This document shows, piece by piece, positions 19,436 through 64,000 of a stretch of 64,000 bases of DNA (the first letter of the stretch is position 1; every line of letters starts with the position of its first letter). The notes below the pieces were generated by a model. It ran no database searches. It was not told the origin of the DNA and saw only the letters and a list, made by a program, of their open reading frames with translations. Source of the stretch: Bacteroidetes bacterium OLB10 (GTDB taxonomy: Bacteria > Bacteroidota > Bacteroidia > AKYH767-A > OLB10); the NCBI GenBank assembly GCA_001567275.1, contig LNBX01000026.1, positions 252,056 through 316,055 of the forward strand. Reading direction: 5' to 3'. Made by a program: the position numbers and the translations under genes.

Positions 19436-20431
19436 TCAATAACTTCTGTTGGTTGTAAAAGTTATTAAATCTTTCATGGATTGTTTGTAGGTACTGTCTT
19501 TAAATTCATTCAGAATAGAAAATGCTTCATCTCTTAATTCAAACATCTTGTTTCTTGCATAATCAATTCCTTTCTTACTGTCAACAAACTTCAGTACTTC
19601 ATTTACTTTAACAGGATTCTCGTTTTCATTTTTTATCATGTTAATGATATGTCTTTTTTCAGAAGAGGTGGACTGGTTTAAAGCATAGATGACAGGCAAC
19701 GTAAGCTTTCTCTCTTTAATATCAATACCGGAAGGTTTTCCCGTGGAAATGCTTTTTTCAAAATCAAACAAATCATCTTTAATCTGAAATGCAAGCCCTA
19801 TGGTTGTTCCAAGTGTGAGCATCCTGTCAATCTGTTCTTCCGCAGCACCTGATGACGCAGCTCCACTACCGCAACAGGATGAAATCAGAGATGCCGTTTT
19901 TTGTCTGATAATGGTGAAATATACTTCTTCTGTAATATCCAGTTTACGTGCCTTTTCCATCTGCAGCAATTCGCCTTCGCTCATTTCTCTCACAGCATTG
20001 CTCACTATCTCGAGCAAACGGTATTCTTTATTCTGTACGGCAATAAGTAATCCCCTTGAAAGAAGATAGTCGCCAACCAACACGGCAATTTTATTTTTCC
20101 ATAATGCATTGATAGAAAAAAATCCTCTCCGCATTAATGAATCATCCACCACATCATCGTGCACCAGTGTTGCTGTGTGCAAAAGTTCAATCAGCGATGC
20201 AGCAGTATAAGTTGACTCTTGCACAGACCCACAAACTCCTGCCGACAAAAACACAAACATCGGTCGCATTTGTTTGCCTTTACGTCTAACGATGTAATGC
20301 ATGATTTTATCCACGAGCGACACCTTGCTGCGCATGGCTTCGCGAAACTTTAATTCAAAAGTTTCCATTTCATGTGCAATTGGTTTCTTAATCGTCTCGA
20401 GAGTGAGTTCCATAAAATTCTGAAGTGCCAA
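19436..20431 (-). CDS. ispB: Polyprenyl (octaprenyl-type) diphosphate synthase
   Basis: A 331-residue all-trans prenyltransferase that extends farnesyl or geranylgeranyl diphosphate with isopentenyl diphosphate, giving the side chain of menaquinone. The first aspartate-rich motif is HDDVVDDS, the second KDDLFDFE, and the GKQMRP motif binds isopentenyl diphosphate. Length is typical. It lies 24 bases after the inferred rlmN stop and three bases before the hydrolase gene. Chain length cannot be told reliably by eye, so the gene symbol marks the family. Confidence 0.88.
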   Translation of the reverse strand: MALQNFMELTLETIKKPIAHEMETFELKFREAMRSKVSLVDKIMHYIVRRKGKQMRPMFVFLSAGVCGSVQESTYTAASLIELLHTATLVHDDVVDDSLMRRGFFSINALWKNKIAVLVGDYLLSRGLLIAVQNKEYRLLEIVSNAVREMSEGELLQMEKARKLDITEEVYFTIIRQKTASLISSCCGSGAASSGAAEEQIDRMLTLGTTIGLAFQIKDDLFDFEKSISTGKPSGIDIKERKLTLPVIYALNQSTSSEKRHIINMIKNENENPVKVNEVLKFVDSKKGIDYARNKMFELRDEAFSILNEFKDSTYKQSMKDLITFTTNRSY

Positions 20432-20455: not shown

Positions 20456-21510
20456 TTATATCATGCTACTCTGTTTGTTCTTGTTGGCTAACTGTCCGCA
20501 GGCAGCATCAATGTCTTTGCCTCTGCTTCGTCTTACATTTACAACGAGATTTTTTGATTCCAGAAAATTTTTTGAATGCTTCCAACCTGTCAGCTCTTGC
20601 TTTTTCAAAAACTCCGTCACCAATAGCATTGTACTCTATCAGATTTATTTTACATGGAACCGTCTTTGCAAACTGAGCCAGGTCCCTGGCATCAGCAAGC
20701 GAATCGTTAAAATTGTTGAATACGATAAATTCATAGGTCACTCTGGTTCCTGTTTTCTCATAGAAATATATCAAAGCTTCTTTCAGCACTTCCAGATTGT
20801 TGTGCTCATTGATGGGCATAATCTTATCGCGCTTTAAATCATTGGCAGCATGCAGCGACAATGCCAGATTAAACTTAACCTGATCGTCACCCAATTTTTT
20901 AATCATCTTCGCAATTCCTGCTGTTGACACTGTAATTCGCTGTGGCGACATATTCAGTCCTTCGGGTGAGGTAACATGTTCTATTGATTTGAGTACATTC
21001 TGATAATTAAGCAGCGGTTCGCCCATACCCATGTAAACAATATTGCTGAGCGGTGTAGCATAATTCTTCTCGCTCTGTTCGCGGATAATGGCAACCTGAT
21101 CGTAAATTTCATCGGCTGTAAGATTCCGTACCCTTCCTATTTTTCCTGTAGCACAAAACTGACAGGCAAGGCTGCATCCCACCTGTGAAGACACACAGGC
21201 TGTCATACGTGATGTAGTTGGTATTAAAACTCCTTCTACTACATTTCCGTCAAATAATTTAAAACCATATTTAATGGTTCTGTCATGACTTCGCTGTTCA
21301 TTCTCGATTATTATTGGCGTAAAGTCATACTTCTCTGCCAGTTTACCTCGTACCTCTTTGGAGAGGTTGGTCATTTCATCAAACGAACGCGCACTCTTCT
21401 TCCACAACCATTCATACACCTGACGTGCACGAAAAGGTTTTTCGCTTATAGAAACAAAAAAAAGACTCTATATCTTCCTTTGAAACTGCCCTGATATTCT
21501 GCTTTCTCAC
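20456..21510 (-). CDS. rlmN: 23S rRNA (adenine2503-C2)-methyltransferase RlmN, frame broken twice
   Basis: A radical-SAM enzyme that methylates A2503 of 23S rRNA and A37 of some tRNAs. The uninterrupted frame covers only 20508-21419 and contains the cluster motif CQFCATG and GMGEPLLNY. Both ends are out of frame. Upstream, from GTG 21510, another frame reads RKQNIRAVSKEDIESFF, then a run of eight T (21456-21463) shifts it; seven T would join it to VSISEKPFRARQVYEWLW. Downstream, at 20564-20573 (sense A6T4), one extra base diverts the frame; removing it restores LESKNLVV, RRSRGKDIDAACGQL and a stop at 20456. That tail holds the C-terminal catalytic cysteine. Corrected length is 350 residues, normal for RlmN. 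Confidence 0.88.
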
Positions 21511-58470: not shown

Positions 58471-61400
58471 TTATCTGATAAGTGTAACCGTTCCTTTAAA
58501 CTCTTCCTGTTTATCAAAAATATTTCTGACAATCACTTTATACACATACACACCTTGCTGACAAATGCTGCTTTTAAACATATTTTCGCCCTGCCATGCA
58601 GGATTGTCTGAAGTCTGATTGAAAACCAAATTTCCCCAGCGGTCGAAAATCAACATCTGCAGTTGTGTGTAACCAATACCACTTGCACTGAATACATCGT
58701 TGCGCCCGTCATTGTTTGGTGAAAAAGCATTGGGTATGTAAATAGTGAATGCACCGCCCACATGCACTTCGCCATAAGCAGTATCTGTACACTGATGTTC
58801 GTTGGCAGCTACCATCACAATCTGGTAAATTCCGGTATCGTTATAAGCATATAATGGATTTGGCTCTGAAGAAACTCCTCTGCTGTCACCAAAATCCCAC
58901 TGATAATATGCTGCGCTGATGCTGTGATTATAAAATTCAAATCGCGGGTCCAAAATGTTTGTCTCGGTACGGCTGATGTCGAATGCTGCAATGGGATTAT
59001 CAAACACCGAAATCAAATCATCCAATACCAGATTGTTTTCACAACCTTCATTGCTGATGGCATATAAACCTACACTATACACTCCCGGGTTCTCGTAAAT
59101 ATGAACCGCTGATACTGCTGAATCTTTGTCACCGTCACCAAATGTCCACTGATAGCTAACGGCATTTGTACTGAGATTGTTGAATGAAACTGTCAAAGGC
59201 ACACAACCTTCTGTATCGAGAGGCTCAAAATTTACCTGTGGCAAAGGATTTACAATAACTGTACTCAATGCCTGTGCAGGTAACACTGTGCATCCATCAT
59301 TGACCAATGCTGTATAAACCGAAGTTGAAGCAGGAGTCACTGTAATGGACGATGCAGATTGTCCGTTCCAGGTGATGGAATAAGGCCCTCCGTTTCCTCC
59401 TGAAGCATTTGCAATAAGTGTTACAGACTCGCCCTGACAGATGGTATCATCAGGACTTACAACAACACTCAGAGGAGGATTGACATTGACATTGGCATAA
59501 CGCAATGGCGAATTGCAACCTGCATTATCGGTGATGAATACATTATACGAAGTAGTAACAGAAGGATTAATCTGCAACACTGCTCCTACATATCCTGTAT
59601 TCCATTTGAATGCATAAGGCGGAGTTCCACCTGAAGCCGAAGCCGTAAGTGTAGCCTGCTGACCAATACAAATAGTTGGATCGGGTGATATTGAAACTGC
59701 AATTGCCGTAGGCTGACTTACTGTTGCTGCAAGTTGGGTAGTACATCCATTCAAATCAGTAACAACAACAGAATAATTTCCCTGGGTAATATTTGAAACT
59801 GAAGAAATGGTATCGCCAGTATTCCAAACGTACTGATAAGGCGCCACACCACCGGTGACTGCTACTGTGACTGAGCCGTTACTTTGACCGTTACACAATA
59901 CATTCTGCACTAGCGATGTTGCCACAAGTAAATCAGGTTGCGTCATCGTGTCGTTGATGCTGAAAGTACAACCATTGCCATCAGTAACAATTAAAGTGTA
60001 TGAGCCTGCAGCAAGGTTTGAAAAAATATTTGACTGCTGCCCTGCTCCACCGTTGACGGCATATACGAAGTTGCCAACACCTCCGGATGCAAGCAGACTG
60101 ATGGTGCCATCAGCTCCACCGAAACAACTTACCGGACTAACCTGAGTAGTTGCTGCAATAGCCTGCGGTTGTGTGATACTTGTAGCAATTGTAGTGGTAC
60201 ATCCGTTGGCATCCATAGCAGTGATGGAATAATTATTGGGTGGAAGAGAATCAAAAATTAAACCTGACTGATAACTCATACCGCCATCAATAGAATACTG
60301 AATTGCCCCTGTTCCTCCTGTAGCAGCTACCGTAACAGAACCGTTATTGAATCCAAAACAACTTACATCTGCAGTTGTGGCTGTAAGCATTAAAAGTGGC
60401 GGTTGCTTTACATTAACAGAGTCGGTAGTGCTGCAGTTATTTGCATCAGTCACTACCACCGTATAAACTCCTGCAGCAATATTCTGAACTGTTTGTGTTG
60501 TATTTCCTGGAACATTCCAGTTGTAAGTGTAAGGACCGGTTCCACCTGATGCATTGACAGTGGCCGTGCCGGTAGTACCTCCATTACATAAAACAGCTGT
60601 TGATGCAGTTTGAGTGATTAACTGTGCCGGCTGACTTAATGCAGCGCTGACAGAATCGAGACAACCATTGGCATCCTGCACATAGAGCATGTAATTTCCT
60701 GCAGGCAATCCGTTGAATAAGGTAGATGATTGCCACGTTACTCCCCTGTCCACACTATAGCTAAACGGAGAAGTTCCTGAGGCAGTACTTAAATTAACCG
60801 AGCCGTCAGAAAAATTATAGCATGAAATATTGGTTGAAGAAATGAGCGATAATATCGGTGCCGGAGCACTTGAAACAGCTATGCTGTCAGCAATCTGACA
60901 ATTATTGGAATCCACAACAATAATTTGATATGTATCAGGAGGCAGGCCTGCAAATATTCCTGACGGTTGATATGTAATACCTCCGTTAACGCTGTACTGA
61001 TATGCGCCTGTTCCACCATTGCCACTGAGTGTAAGCATAGCATTTGCATTGCCACAGGTTGCAACAGAAGAAGTAACTGAATATGTAAGTAATGGTGGCT
61101 CATTGACAACAATGAAACTGTCAGCCACACATCCGTTCTGATCCACAACAATTATATCATAATTTCCTGCAGCAAGATTGTTAAATACATTTCCCATTTG
61201 CAGCGTCTGACCATTGTTGATGCTGTACTGGAATGGACCCGTACCGCTGCTTTGTGTCAATACAATTGCACCTCCGTTATCACCATTACATTTTAAATCA
61301 GTAACAGCAATATTGGAAATCACCGGCCCACTGATATTATTTATCACTGTGGTTTGAGTTGCAGTACATGCATTTCCATCCTGCAATACAACAGTGTAAG

Positions 61401-61581
61401 TTGTCGCATTCAGTGAATCAAACATTACAGATGTTTGCCATATATTTCCGCCATCAACACTAAACTGATAGTTGCCTGCACCTCCGGAAGCATTGGCTAC
61501 TGTTATTGTTCCGTTGCTGTTGCCACACGTAGCTGCGGTTACATTTAAAGTAAAGTTTACAGGTGCGGGTTGTGTTATCAG
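58471..61581 (-). CDS. Giant SprB-repeat adhesin, C-terminal part (PKD, T9SS type B)
   Basis: This frame is open from 61581 and is the continuation of the frame ending at 61578; there is no genuine start, although an in-frame ATG exists at 61425. It holds repeats A6-B7 of the A/B series, then four more SprB repeats, two different beta domains and two PKD domains (VSYQWTFGDGDKDS; YYQWDFGDSRG). It ends in the T9SS type B (gliding-motility C-terminal) signal IPNAFSPNNDGRNDVF to IFDRWGNLVF. Fusing the frames gives a surface adhesin of more than 1800 residues in this window alone. Confidence 0.88.
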   Translation of the reverse strand: MITQPAPVNFTLNVTAATCGNSNGTITVANASGGAGNYQFSVDGGNIWQTSVMFDSLNATTYTVVLQDGNACTATQTTVINNISGPVISNIAVTDLKCNGDNGGAIVLTQSSGTGPFQYSINNGQTLQMGNVFNNLAAGNYDIIVVDQNGCVADSFIVVNEPPLLTYSVTSSVATCGNANAMLTLSGNGGTGAYQYSVNGGITYQPSGIFAGLPPDTYQIIVVDSNNCQIADSIAVSSAPAPILSLISSTNISCYNFSDGSVNLSTASGTSPFSYSVDRGVTWQSSTLFNGLPAGNYMLYVQDANGCLDSVSAALSQPAQLITQTASTAVLCNGGTTGTATVNASGGTGPYTYNWNVPGNTTQTVQNIAAGVYTVVVTDANNCSTTDSVNVKQPPLLMLTATTADVSCFGFNNGSVTVAATGGTGAIQYSIDGGMSYQSGLIFDSLPPNNYSITAMDANGCTTTIATSITQPQAIAATTQVSPVSCFGGADGTISLLASGGVGNFVYAVNGGAGQQSNIFSNLAAGSYTLIVTDGNGCTFSINDTMTQPDLLVATSLVQNVLCNGQSNGSVTVAVTGGVAPYQYVWNTGDTISSVSNITQGNYSVVVTDLNGCTTQLAATVSQPTAIAVSISPDPTICIGQQATLTASASGGTPPYAFKWNTGYVGAVLQINPSVTTSYNVFITDNAGCNSPLRYANVNVNPPLSVVVSPDDTICQGESVTLIANASGGNGGPYSITWNGQSASSITVTPASTSVYTALVNDGCTVLPAQALSTVIVNPLPQVNFEPLDTEGCVPLTVSFNNLSTNAVSYQWTFGDGDKDSAVSAVHIYENPGVYSVGLYAISNEGCENNLVLDDLISVFDNPIAAFDISRTETNILDPRFEFYNHSISAAYYQWDFGDSRGVSSEPNPLYAYNDTGIYQIVMVAANEHQCTDTAYGEVHVGGAFTIYIPNAFSPNNDGRNDVFSASGIGYTQLQMLIFDRWGNLVFNQTSDNPAWQGENMFKSSICQQGVYVYKVIVRNIFDKQEEFKGTVTLIR

Positions 61582-64000
61582 TCAGAAGAAGAAACTGTGC
61601 AGCCATTGGCATCAGAAACTACAATGCCATAAGTGCCAACTGCCAAGTTTGAAAACTGAGCAGAAGTCTGATACGAAGAACCGTTGTTGATGGAATAAGT
61701 TAAAGGAGATGTACCTCCTGAAGCGTTTACAGAAATACTTCCATTGCTGAAACCATTGCACAACACATTAACAATTGTTGAAGGTGATAACACTGGCCCG
61801 GGTGCATCGGTTACAGTCACAGCTGTTTGTGCAGTACAATGATTTGAATCCTGAACCACTACAGTATAACTTCCTGCTGAAATCAGGTTGAACTGCGCAG
61901 ATGCCTGATACGTTATTCCACTGTCGGACGAATAAGTAAGTATTCCAACTCCTCCGGCAGCAGTTACATTAATCAAACCGTTTGCATTGCTGCAGGTAGT
62001 ACCAGTTGCAGCAGCACTTACAACCAACTGAACTGGCTGCTGAATGATTGCCGATGACGTTGCCGTACATCCGTTGGCATCCTGCACCACAATCTGATAA
62101 TTTCCCTGTGGGAGATTACTGAAATAGTTTCCTGACTGAAAAGTACTTCCGTTGTTGACTGAATATTGCAAGGCTCCTGTTCCACCGTTGGCATTCACTG
62201 TTACTGAACCATTGGCCAATCCAAAACATTTTACATCGGCAGCAACCACATTTGTTACTGATGGTGCAGCCTGATTGGTGATGACAGATTGCGCACTTAC
62301 CATACATCCATTGTCGTCCTGAACAACCACATTGTAAGTATTTGCAGCAAGGTTTGTAAACGAATTTGAACTCTGAAAACTCACTCCATTATCAATAGAA
62401 TAATTAAACGGAGCTGTTCCTCCAATGACATTGAATGTTAAAGCTCCATTTGCATTTCCACAGGTAGAAGGAGTGTTTCCGGTATTGAATAATAATGCAT
62501 CAGGCTCGGTAAGTTGCACACTATAAGTTGACTGACATCCTGCAGCATCCTGTACGATGATGGAATAATTTCCCTGAGCCAGGTTTGAATAAGCATTAGC
62601 AGCAGAGTACGTATTTCCATTATCAATGGAATATTGAAGTGCGCCTGTTCCTCCGGTTGCACTAATCGTAATCATACCATCGTTGCTGCCATTACAGGTC
62701 AGTGAAGAATAAGATACGTTAGATATAACCGGTGCATTTGTATTGCTTATTGAAGCAACATCAGTTGCAATACATCCGTTTGCATCCTGAACAATGATCT
62801 GATAATTGCCTGCACCCTGATTGGGGAAACTTCCGCCCGCCTGATACGATGAACCATTATTTATAGAATACTGCAATGTTCCTGCACCACCGCTTGCATT
62901 CAGCGTAATGCTTCCGTTTGAAACTCCGCATGAAGCATCTGTAACTGCAATATTGATAACAATCTCATCAGGTTCGGTAATGATAACATTTGCAGTTACC
63001 GAACATCCCTGAGCATCGGTTACAAGTACAGTATAGTTGCCTGAAGTAAGCGAAGAGAAAATATTTGATGATTGTGAGGTTATTCCTCCATTGATGCTGT
63101 AACTTAAAGTGCCCGTACCTCCTGTAACATTTACAACCACCGAACCATCATTATATCCGAAACAACTTACGTTGGTAACAGGTGAGGAACTCACCACAGG
63201 TGATGCTGTATTCAATACACTTGCTGCTACTGAAGATGTACAACCATTTGCATCCTGCACCACTACATTATAATTTCCGGCAAGCAAATTCAAAAACAAT
63301 GAATCACTCAGATAATTTACACCACCGTCAATGCTGTAAGTCAATATTCCTGATCCTCCTGCAGCAGAAACAGTAAGTGTTCCGTTTGCATTTCCGCAGG
63401 TTGCATCTGTTGATGATGTAGTTAATGCAATTGACTGCGGCTCTGATAAAATTGCAGAAGAAGAAACCGTACAACCATTGGCATCCTGCACAAGTACCTG
63501 ATAGCTGCCTGCACTGAGGTTAGCAAATGCATTCGCACTTTGGAATGTAGCACCATTATCAATTGAATACTGAACTGGTGCAGTACCATTGCTCACAGAA
63601 ATGGTTATTGTTCCATTACCACTTCCGTTGCAGTTAAGATCGGTATGAGCAACATTATTTATCACCGGTGAAGGATCTGAACCCACTTGCACAGCAGATG
63701 ATGCTGAGCAACCATTTGCATCAGTAATCACCAACTGATAATTTCCTGATGCAAGAGATGAAAACTGATTGGTAGTTTGGAAAGTCAACCCGTTATCAGA
63801 AGAATACTGATAAGGTGATGTACCGCCATTTGAGCTGATTGTAATGTTACCATTTGCATTGCCACAGGTAGAACCTGTTGCTGTTGAAGTGAAAGTAAGC
63901 AAAGGTGGTTCGGCAACCGTTATTGATGAAGTTACCGTGCATCCGCTTGCATCCTGCACCACTACTGTATAACTTCCGGGAATTACATTACTGAATAATG
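60615..64000 (-). repeat. Alternating A/B SprB-type super-repeat, 468-base period
   Basis: Seven consecutive pairs of protein repeats alternate between type A (TCGNANG core, followed by an A.PVI linker) and type B (C[NF]G..NG core, followed by an EP or QP linker). Each unit is about 78 residues. The first full A-B pair measured from the right is 156 residues, or 468 bases. Every unit keeps a second Cys in D.NGC. The region runs off the window end. Confidence 0.8.
61578..64000 (-). CDS. Giant SprB-repeat adhesin, N-terminal part in window (5' end outside)
   Basis: The frame is open to the right edge of the window and consists only of SprB-type repeats A1-B5. It ends abruptly at TGA 61578-61580 inside the usual repeat-linker sequence (DANGCTVSSS). 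One base later the other frame continues with LITQPAPVNF and repeat A6, so a one-base loss (or two-base gain) near 61578-61595, at a TTC/TCT microsatellite, splits the gene. No decay is seen in either half. The protein would be exported by T9SS and displayed at the surface like the gliding adhesin SprB. Confidence 0.87.
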   Translation of the reverse strand, partial: LFSNVIPGSYTVVVQDASGCTVTSSITVAEPPLLTFTSTATGSTCGNANGNITISSNGGTSPYQYSSDNGLTFQTTNQFSSLASGNYQLVITDANGCSASSAVQVGSDPSPVINNVAHTDLNCNGSGNGTITISVSNGTAPVQYSIDNGATFQSANAFANLSAGSYQVLVQDANGCTVSSSAILSEPQSIALTTSSTDATCGNANGTLTVSAAGGSGILTYSIDGGVNYLSDSLFLNLLAGNYNVVVQDANGCTSSVAASVLNTASPVVSSSPVTNVSCFGYNDGSVVVNVTGGTGTLSYSINGGITSQSSNIFSSLTSGNYTVLVTDAQGCSVTANVIITEPDEIVINIAVTDASCGVSNGSITLNASGGAGTLQYSINNGSSYQAGGSFPNQGAGNYQIIVQDANGCIATDVASISNTNAPVISNVSYSSLTCNGSNDGMITISATGGTGALQYSIDNGNTYSAANAYSNLAQGNYSIIVQDAAGCQSTYSVQLTEPDALLFNTGNTPSTCGNANGALTFNVIGGTAPFNYSIDNGVSFQSSNSFTNLAANTYNVVVQDDNGCMVSAQSVITNQAAPSVTNVVAADVKCFGLANGSVTVNANGGTGALQYSVNNGSTFQSGNYFSNLPQGNYQIVVQDANGCTATSSAIIQQPVQLVVSAAATGTTCSNANGLINVTAAGGVGILTYSSDSGITYQASAQFNLISAGSYTVVVQDSNHCTAQTAVTVTDAPGPVLSPSTIVNVLCNGFSNGSISVNASGGTSPLTYSINNGSSYQTSAQFSNLAVGTYGIVVSDANGCTVSSSD

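Follow-up and report, generated by a model that had tools for sequence, protein, structure and literature searches.

Two frameshifts that split the deposited rlmN of Bacteroidetes bacterium OLB10 are probably homopolymer errors of a draft assembly

RlmN (TIGR00048), the dual-specificity C2-methyltransferase of 23S rRNA A2503 and tRNA A37, is encoded by a single frame across its family, and in the E. coli enzyme a C-terminal cysteine accepts the methyl group. Homopolymer errors that fragment genes have been described in long-read assemblies (PMC12007338), and in the insect endosymbiont Blochmannia vafer eight genes, dnaX and dnaG among them, are frameshifted in homopolymeric tracts, for which correction by transcriptional slippage has been proposed (PMC3017870). 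The rlmN deposited for the uncultured Bacteroidetes bacterium OLB10 departs from its family in occupying three frames: its core passes the family cut-off, and the N- and C-terminal segments typical of RlmN are present in other frames.

Here, we examine the frames of this gene, its relatives and the frameshift background in which it lies, and find that its two breaks are very probably homopolymer-length errors of sequencing or assembly, the cell itself carrying an ordinary, intact rlmN. The window, the whole 64,000-nucleotide stretch that was analysed, covers positions 252056–316055 of a 395-kb contig (C26) in a draft genome of 51 contigs, with an assembly of ~3 Mb that is 96% complete and 0.2% contaminated.

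Reading all frames of the minus strand between positions 20456 and 21510 of the window recovers RlmN in three parts. The core is a 303-residue frame with a GTG start (20508–21419) that contains the radical-SAM CxxxCxxC region as CSLACQFC, with a PF04055 match above the cut-off, and on its own it scores 313 bits against the TIGR00048 equivalog cut-off of 290 (NCBIfam), aligning over profile positions 34–323 of 355. This frame clearly belongs to RlmN on sequence grounds, as the original prediction had proposed. Upstream, the N-terminal coding segment (21464–21510) opens with GTG followed by RKQNIRAVSKEDIES and supplies the RlmN segment RKQNIRAVSKEDIESFF in a frame other than that of the core, the two being joined at a run of eight T (21456–21463). 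Downstream, the core meets a third frame at an A6T4 run (20564–20573); this C-terminal frame of 57 residues (20456–20629) contains RRSRGKDIDAACGQL, and beyond the junction its coding segment (20456–20563) bears the conserved cysteine of AACGQL and the stop codon. The core as written thus lacks both the normal N-terminus of RlmN and, its last residues being out of frame, the segment with that cysteine. Both runs lie exactly where they had been placed, and the three-frame arrangement and the absence of the cysteine from the written product, all claimed from the letters alone, are borne out. The claimed distance of 24 bases from the stop to the next gene is correct for a start of that gene at TTG 20431; its start could also be the in-frame ATG at 20413. 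A search of the whole genome matched the C-terminal fragment on its own, in a different frame, and found no second rlmN, intact or otherwise.

We found an rlmN match in 39 of the 41 genomes searched (the window's own counted), including all 33 of good quality, and in the three same-genus genomes G001, G002 and G003 the gene is one long frame. Because the runs at the two junctions are shorter in G001 and G003, with the frame open throughout, and because the upstream site mostly has no long T run outside the genus, the shifts are confined to the window's genome, with no conserved frameshift signal. A conserved programmed frameshift is ruled out, as congeners and family members read the gene in one frame. 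The position of the T8 run close to the 5' end of rlmN would suit phase variation, in which the run serves as a contingency tract that toggles the gene on and off. We consider this hardly credible: the second shift lies elsewhere in rlmN, two congeners have T7 at the site but other family members show no such run there, and the window as a whole shows no enrichment of T8 runs (7, where shuffling predicts ~21).

Substitutions in the stretch between the two shifts record how the gene has evolved. Compared with G001, this stretch has a dS of 0.51 and a dN of 0.0105 (dN/dS 0.02), and with G003 as outgroup the codon changes divide into 16 synonymous and 3 nonsynonymous on the window's lineage and 28 and 1 on that of G001, leaving 25 codons unresolved. 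This pattern shows that rlmN was under strong purifying selection until very recently at least. We saw no relaxed constraint of the kind expected of a pseudogene; a dN/dS of 0.02 rules out a long-standing one and is compatible with a very recent break.

To place the two shifts against their background, we compared 370 kb of the contig with 360 kb of G001 sequence, covering one contig and counting as orthologues the best matches with an amino-acid identity of 80% or more; the genes had a median nucleotide identity of 0.91. In the window's genome, 16 of 225 orthologous genes (~7%) are broken into more than one frame; over 265 kb of coding sequence this amounts to 19 shifts. The reverse comparison flags 9 of 236 genes; judged by their coordinates, six of these flags are pieces of genes that are broken on the window's side, which leaves 1–3 (~1%). 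A separate DNA alignment gave 17 non-triplet indels, spread over 15 of the 223 genes it covered. Each is a single base and both signs occur; most lie in A or T runs of 5–9, and a few fall outside long runs, at runs of only 2–3 in some cases. Single-base gaps at non-run positions in a whole-contig blastn comparison were set aside as probably largely alignment noise. With a background along the contig of only ~0.07 shifts per kb of coding sequence, the majority of genes should have escaped a break; the part of rpoB that was searched falls within a 1279-residue open frame.

Several individual genes illustrate the range of these differences. A fusion gene of malic enzyme and phosphotransacetylase (C26 95539) is split by a one-base difference outside any long A/T run. 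In the window, a giant repetitive gene on the minus strand (58471–63998), whose product is probably secreted or on the surface, occupies two frames, split near 61425–61580, and is one frame of 4410 residues in G001. Conversely, a 335-residue frame at C26 184174–185181 (minus strand) is intact here and split at an A run in G001, whose assembly apparently has a few slips of its own.

The single-base shifts of the contig are like the homopolymer indels known from draft assemblies (PMC12007338), falling mostly in A/T runs, affecting many genes including essential ones and being absent in relatives. They differ in direction: the nanopore study reported mostly deletions (PMC12007338), whereas single-base differences in coding runs of at least five lean here to the longer run (longer in the window's genome at 23 sites, in G001 at 8).

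The breaks extend to genes that a cell can hardly lose. A T run within the conserved domain of yidC marks a frameshift that splits the gene (C26 251317, ~740 bases before the window's start), and era is likewise split at a T run at C26 123498, leaving a partial gene with its first 52 positions in another frame. Their G001 counterparts are YidC and Era by NCBIfam, and the genome-wide searches found no second YidC domain, while the partial era gene was the only one to score above the Era cut-off. E. coli cannot live without either gene. Because a living population with both of them broken is implausible, the shifts in yidC and era, at least, are probably errors, and those in rlmN are of the same kind. 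Similar shifts thus run across unrelated genes, essential ones included.

Broken essential genes would also be accounted for if the shifts were real and tolerated, with slippage of RNA polymerase or the ribosome on the runs yielding some full-length protein, for which insect endosymbionts such as Blochmannia offer a precedent. We regard such a rescue as very unlikely, given that the runs here are mostly short (5–8, some only 2–3), that rlmN would require two independent corrections, that the state is not common to the congener, and that the genome, unlike that of an endosymbiont, is not reduced. That an ordinary-sized Bacteroidota genome should truly carry shifts in ~7% of its genes, yidC and era among them, and tolerate them by polymerase or ribosomal slippage seems less probable still. 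If real, the shifts would raise the question of how a cell lives with its yidC and era broken.

The original prediction named assembly error as what would overturn it, and read the breaks as a loss of RlmN that could alter drug responses and translation accuracy. In such a real and very recent loss, slipped-strand mutations would have inactivated a non-essential gene and left a strain without the A2503 methyl group of its 23S rRNA. Both shifts do lie at slippage-prone runs, and E. coli can do without rlmN. A double break in a single gene also fits relaxed selection, if weakly: three of the 16 broken genes carry two shifts, rlmN one of them, against ~0.8 estimated by chance, a mild excess that could be compatible with real decay as well. 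Yet the core has kept its dN/dS near 0.02, with nonsynonymous changes far outnumbered by synonymous ones on its lineage, and losing a gene that the cell can spare could not account for breaks of the same type in yidC and era, of which no other copies were found. The affected fraction is also ~7% of compared genes, where the congener has ~1%. A real loss of RlmN is, on these comparisons, unlikely and most likely not what happened, so that the analysis of frames and the identification of the gene stand and the biological reading does not.

From the shifts, their background, the broken yidC and era and the constraint on the core, we infer that the breaks arose in sequencing or assembly and not in the cell. 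Homopolymer error accounts for the two shifts, for their spread over unrelated genes, for the broken essential genes and for the lack of decay. The rlmN breaks would then be part of a contig-wide background of uncorrected homopolymer indels, in which the gene stands out among split genes only by carrying two shifts; the observation made on the sequence is accurate, and the finding is an ordinary one. Gene-loss calls from assembly GCA_001567275.1, for rlmN and for other genes, are not to be trusted at face value without the reads, and the rlmN of the cell would be intact, with the deposited sequence alone carrying the two frame breaks.
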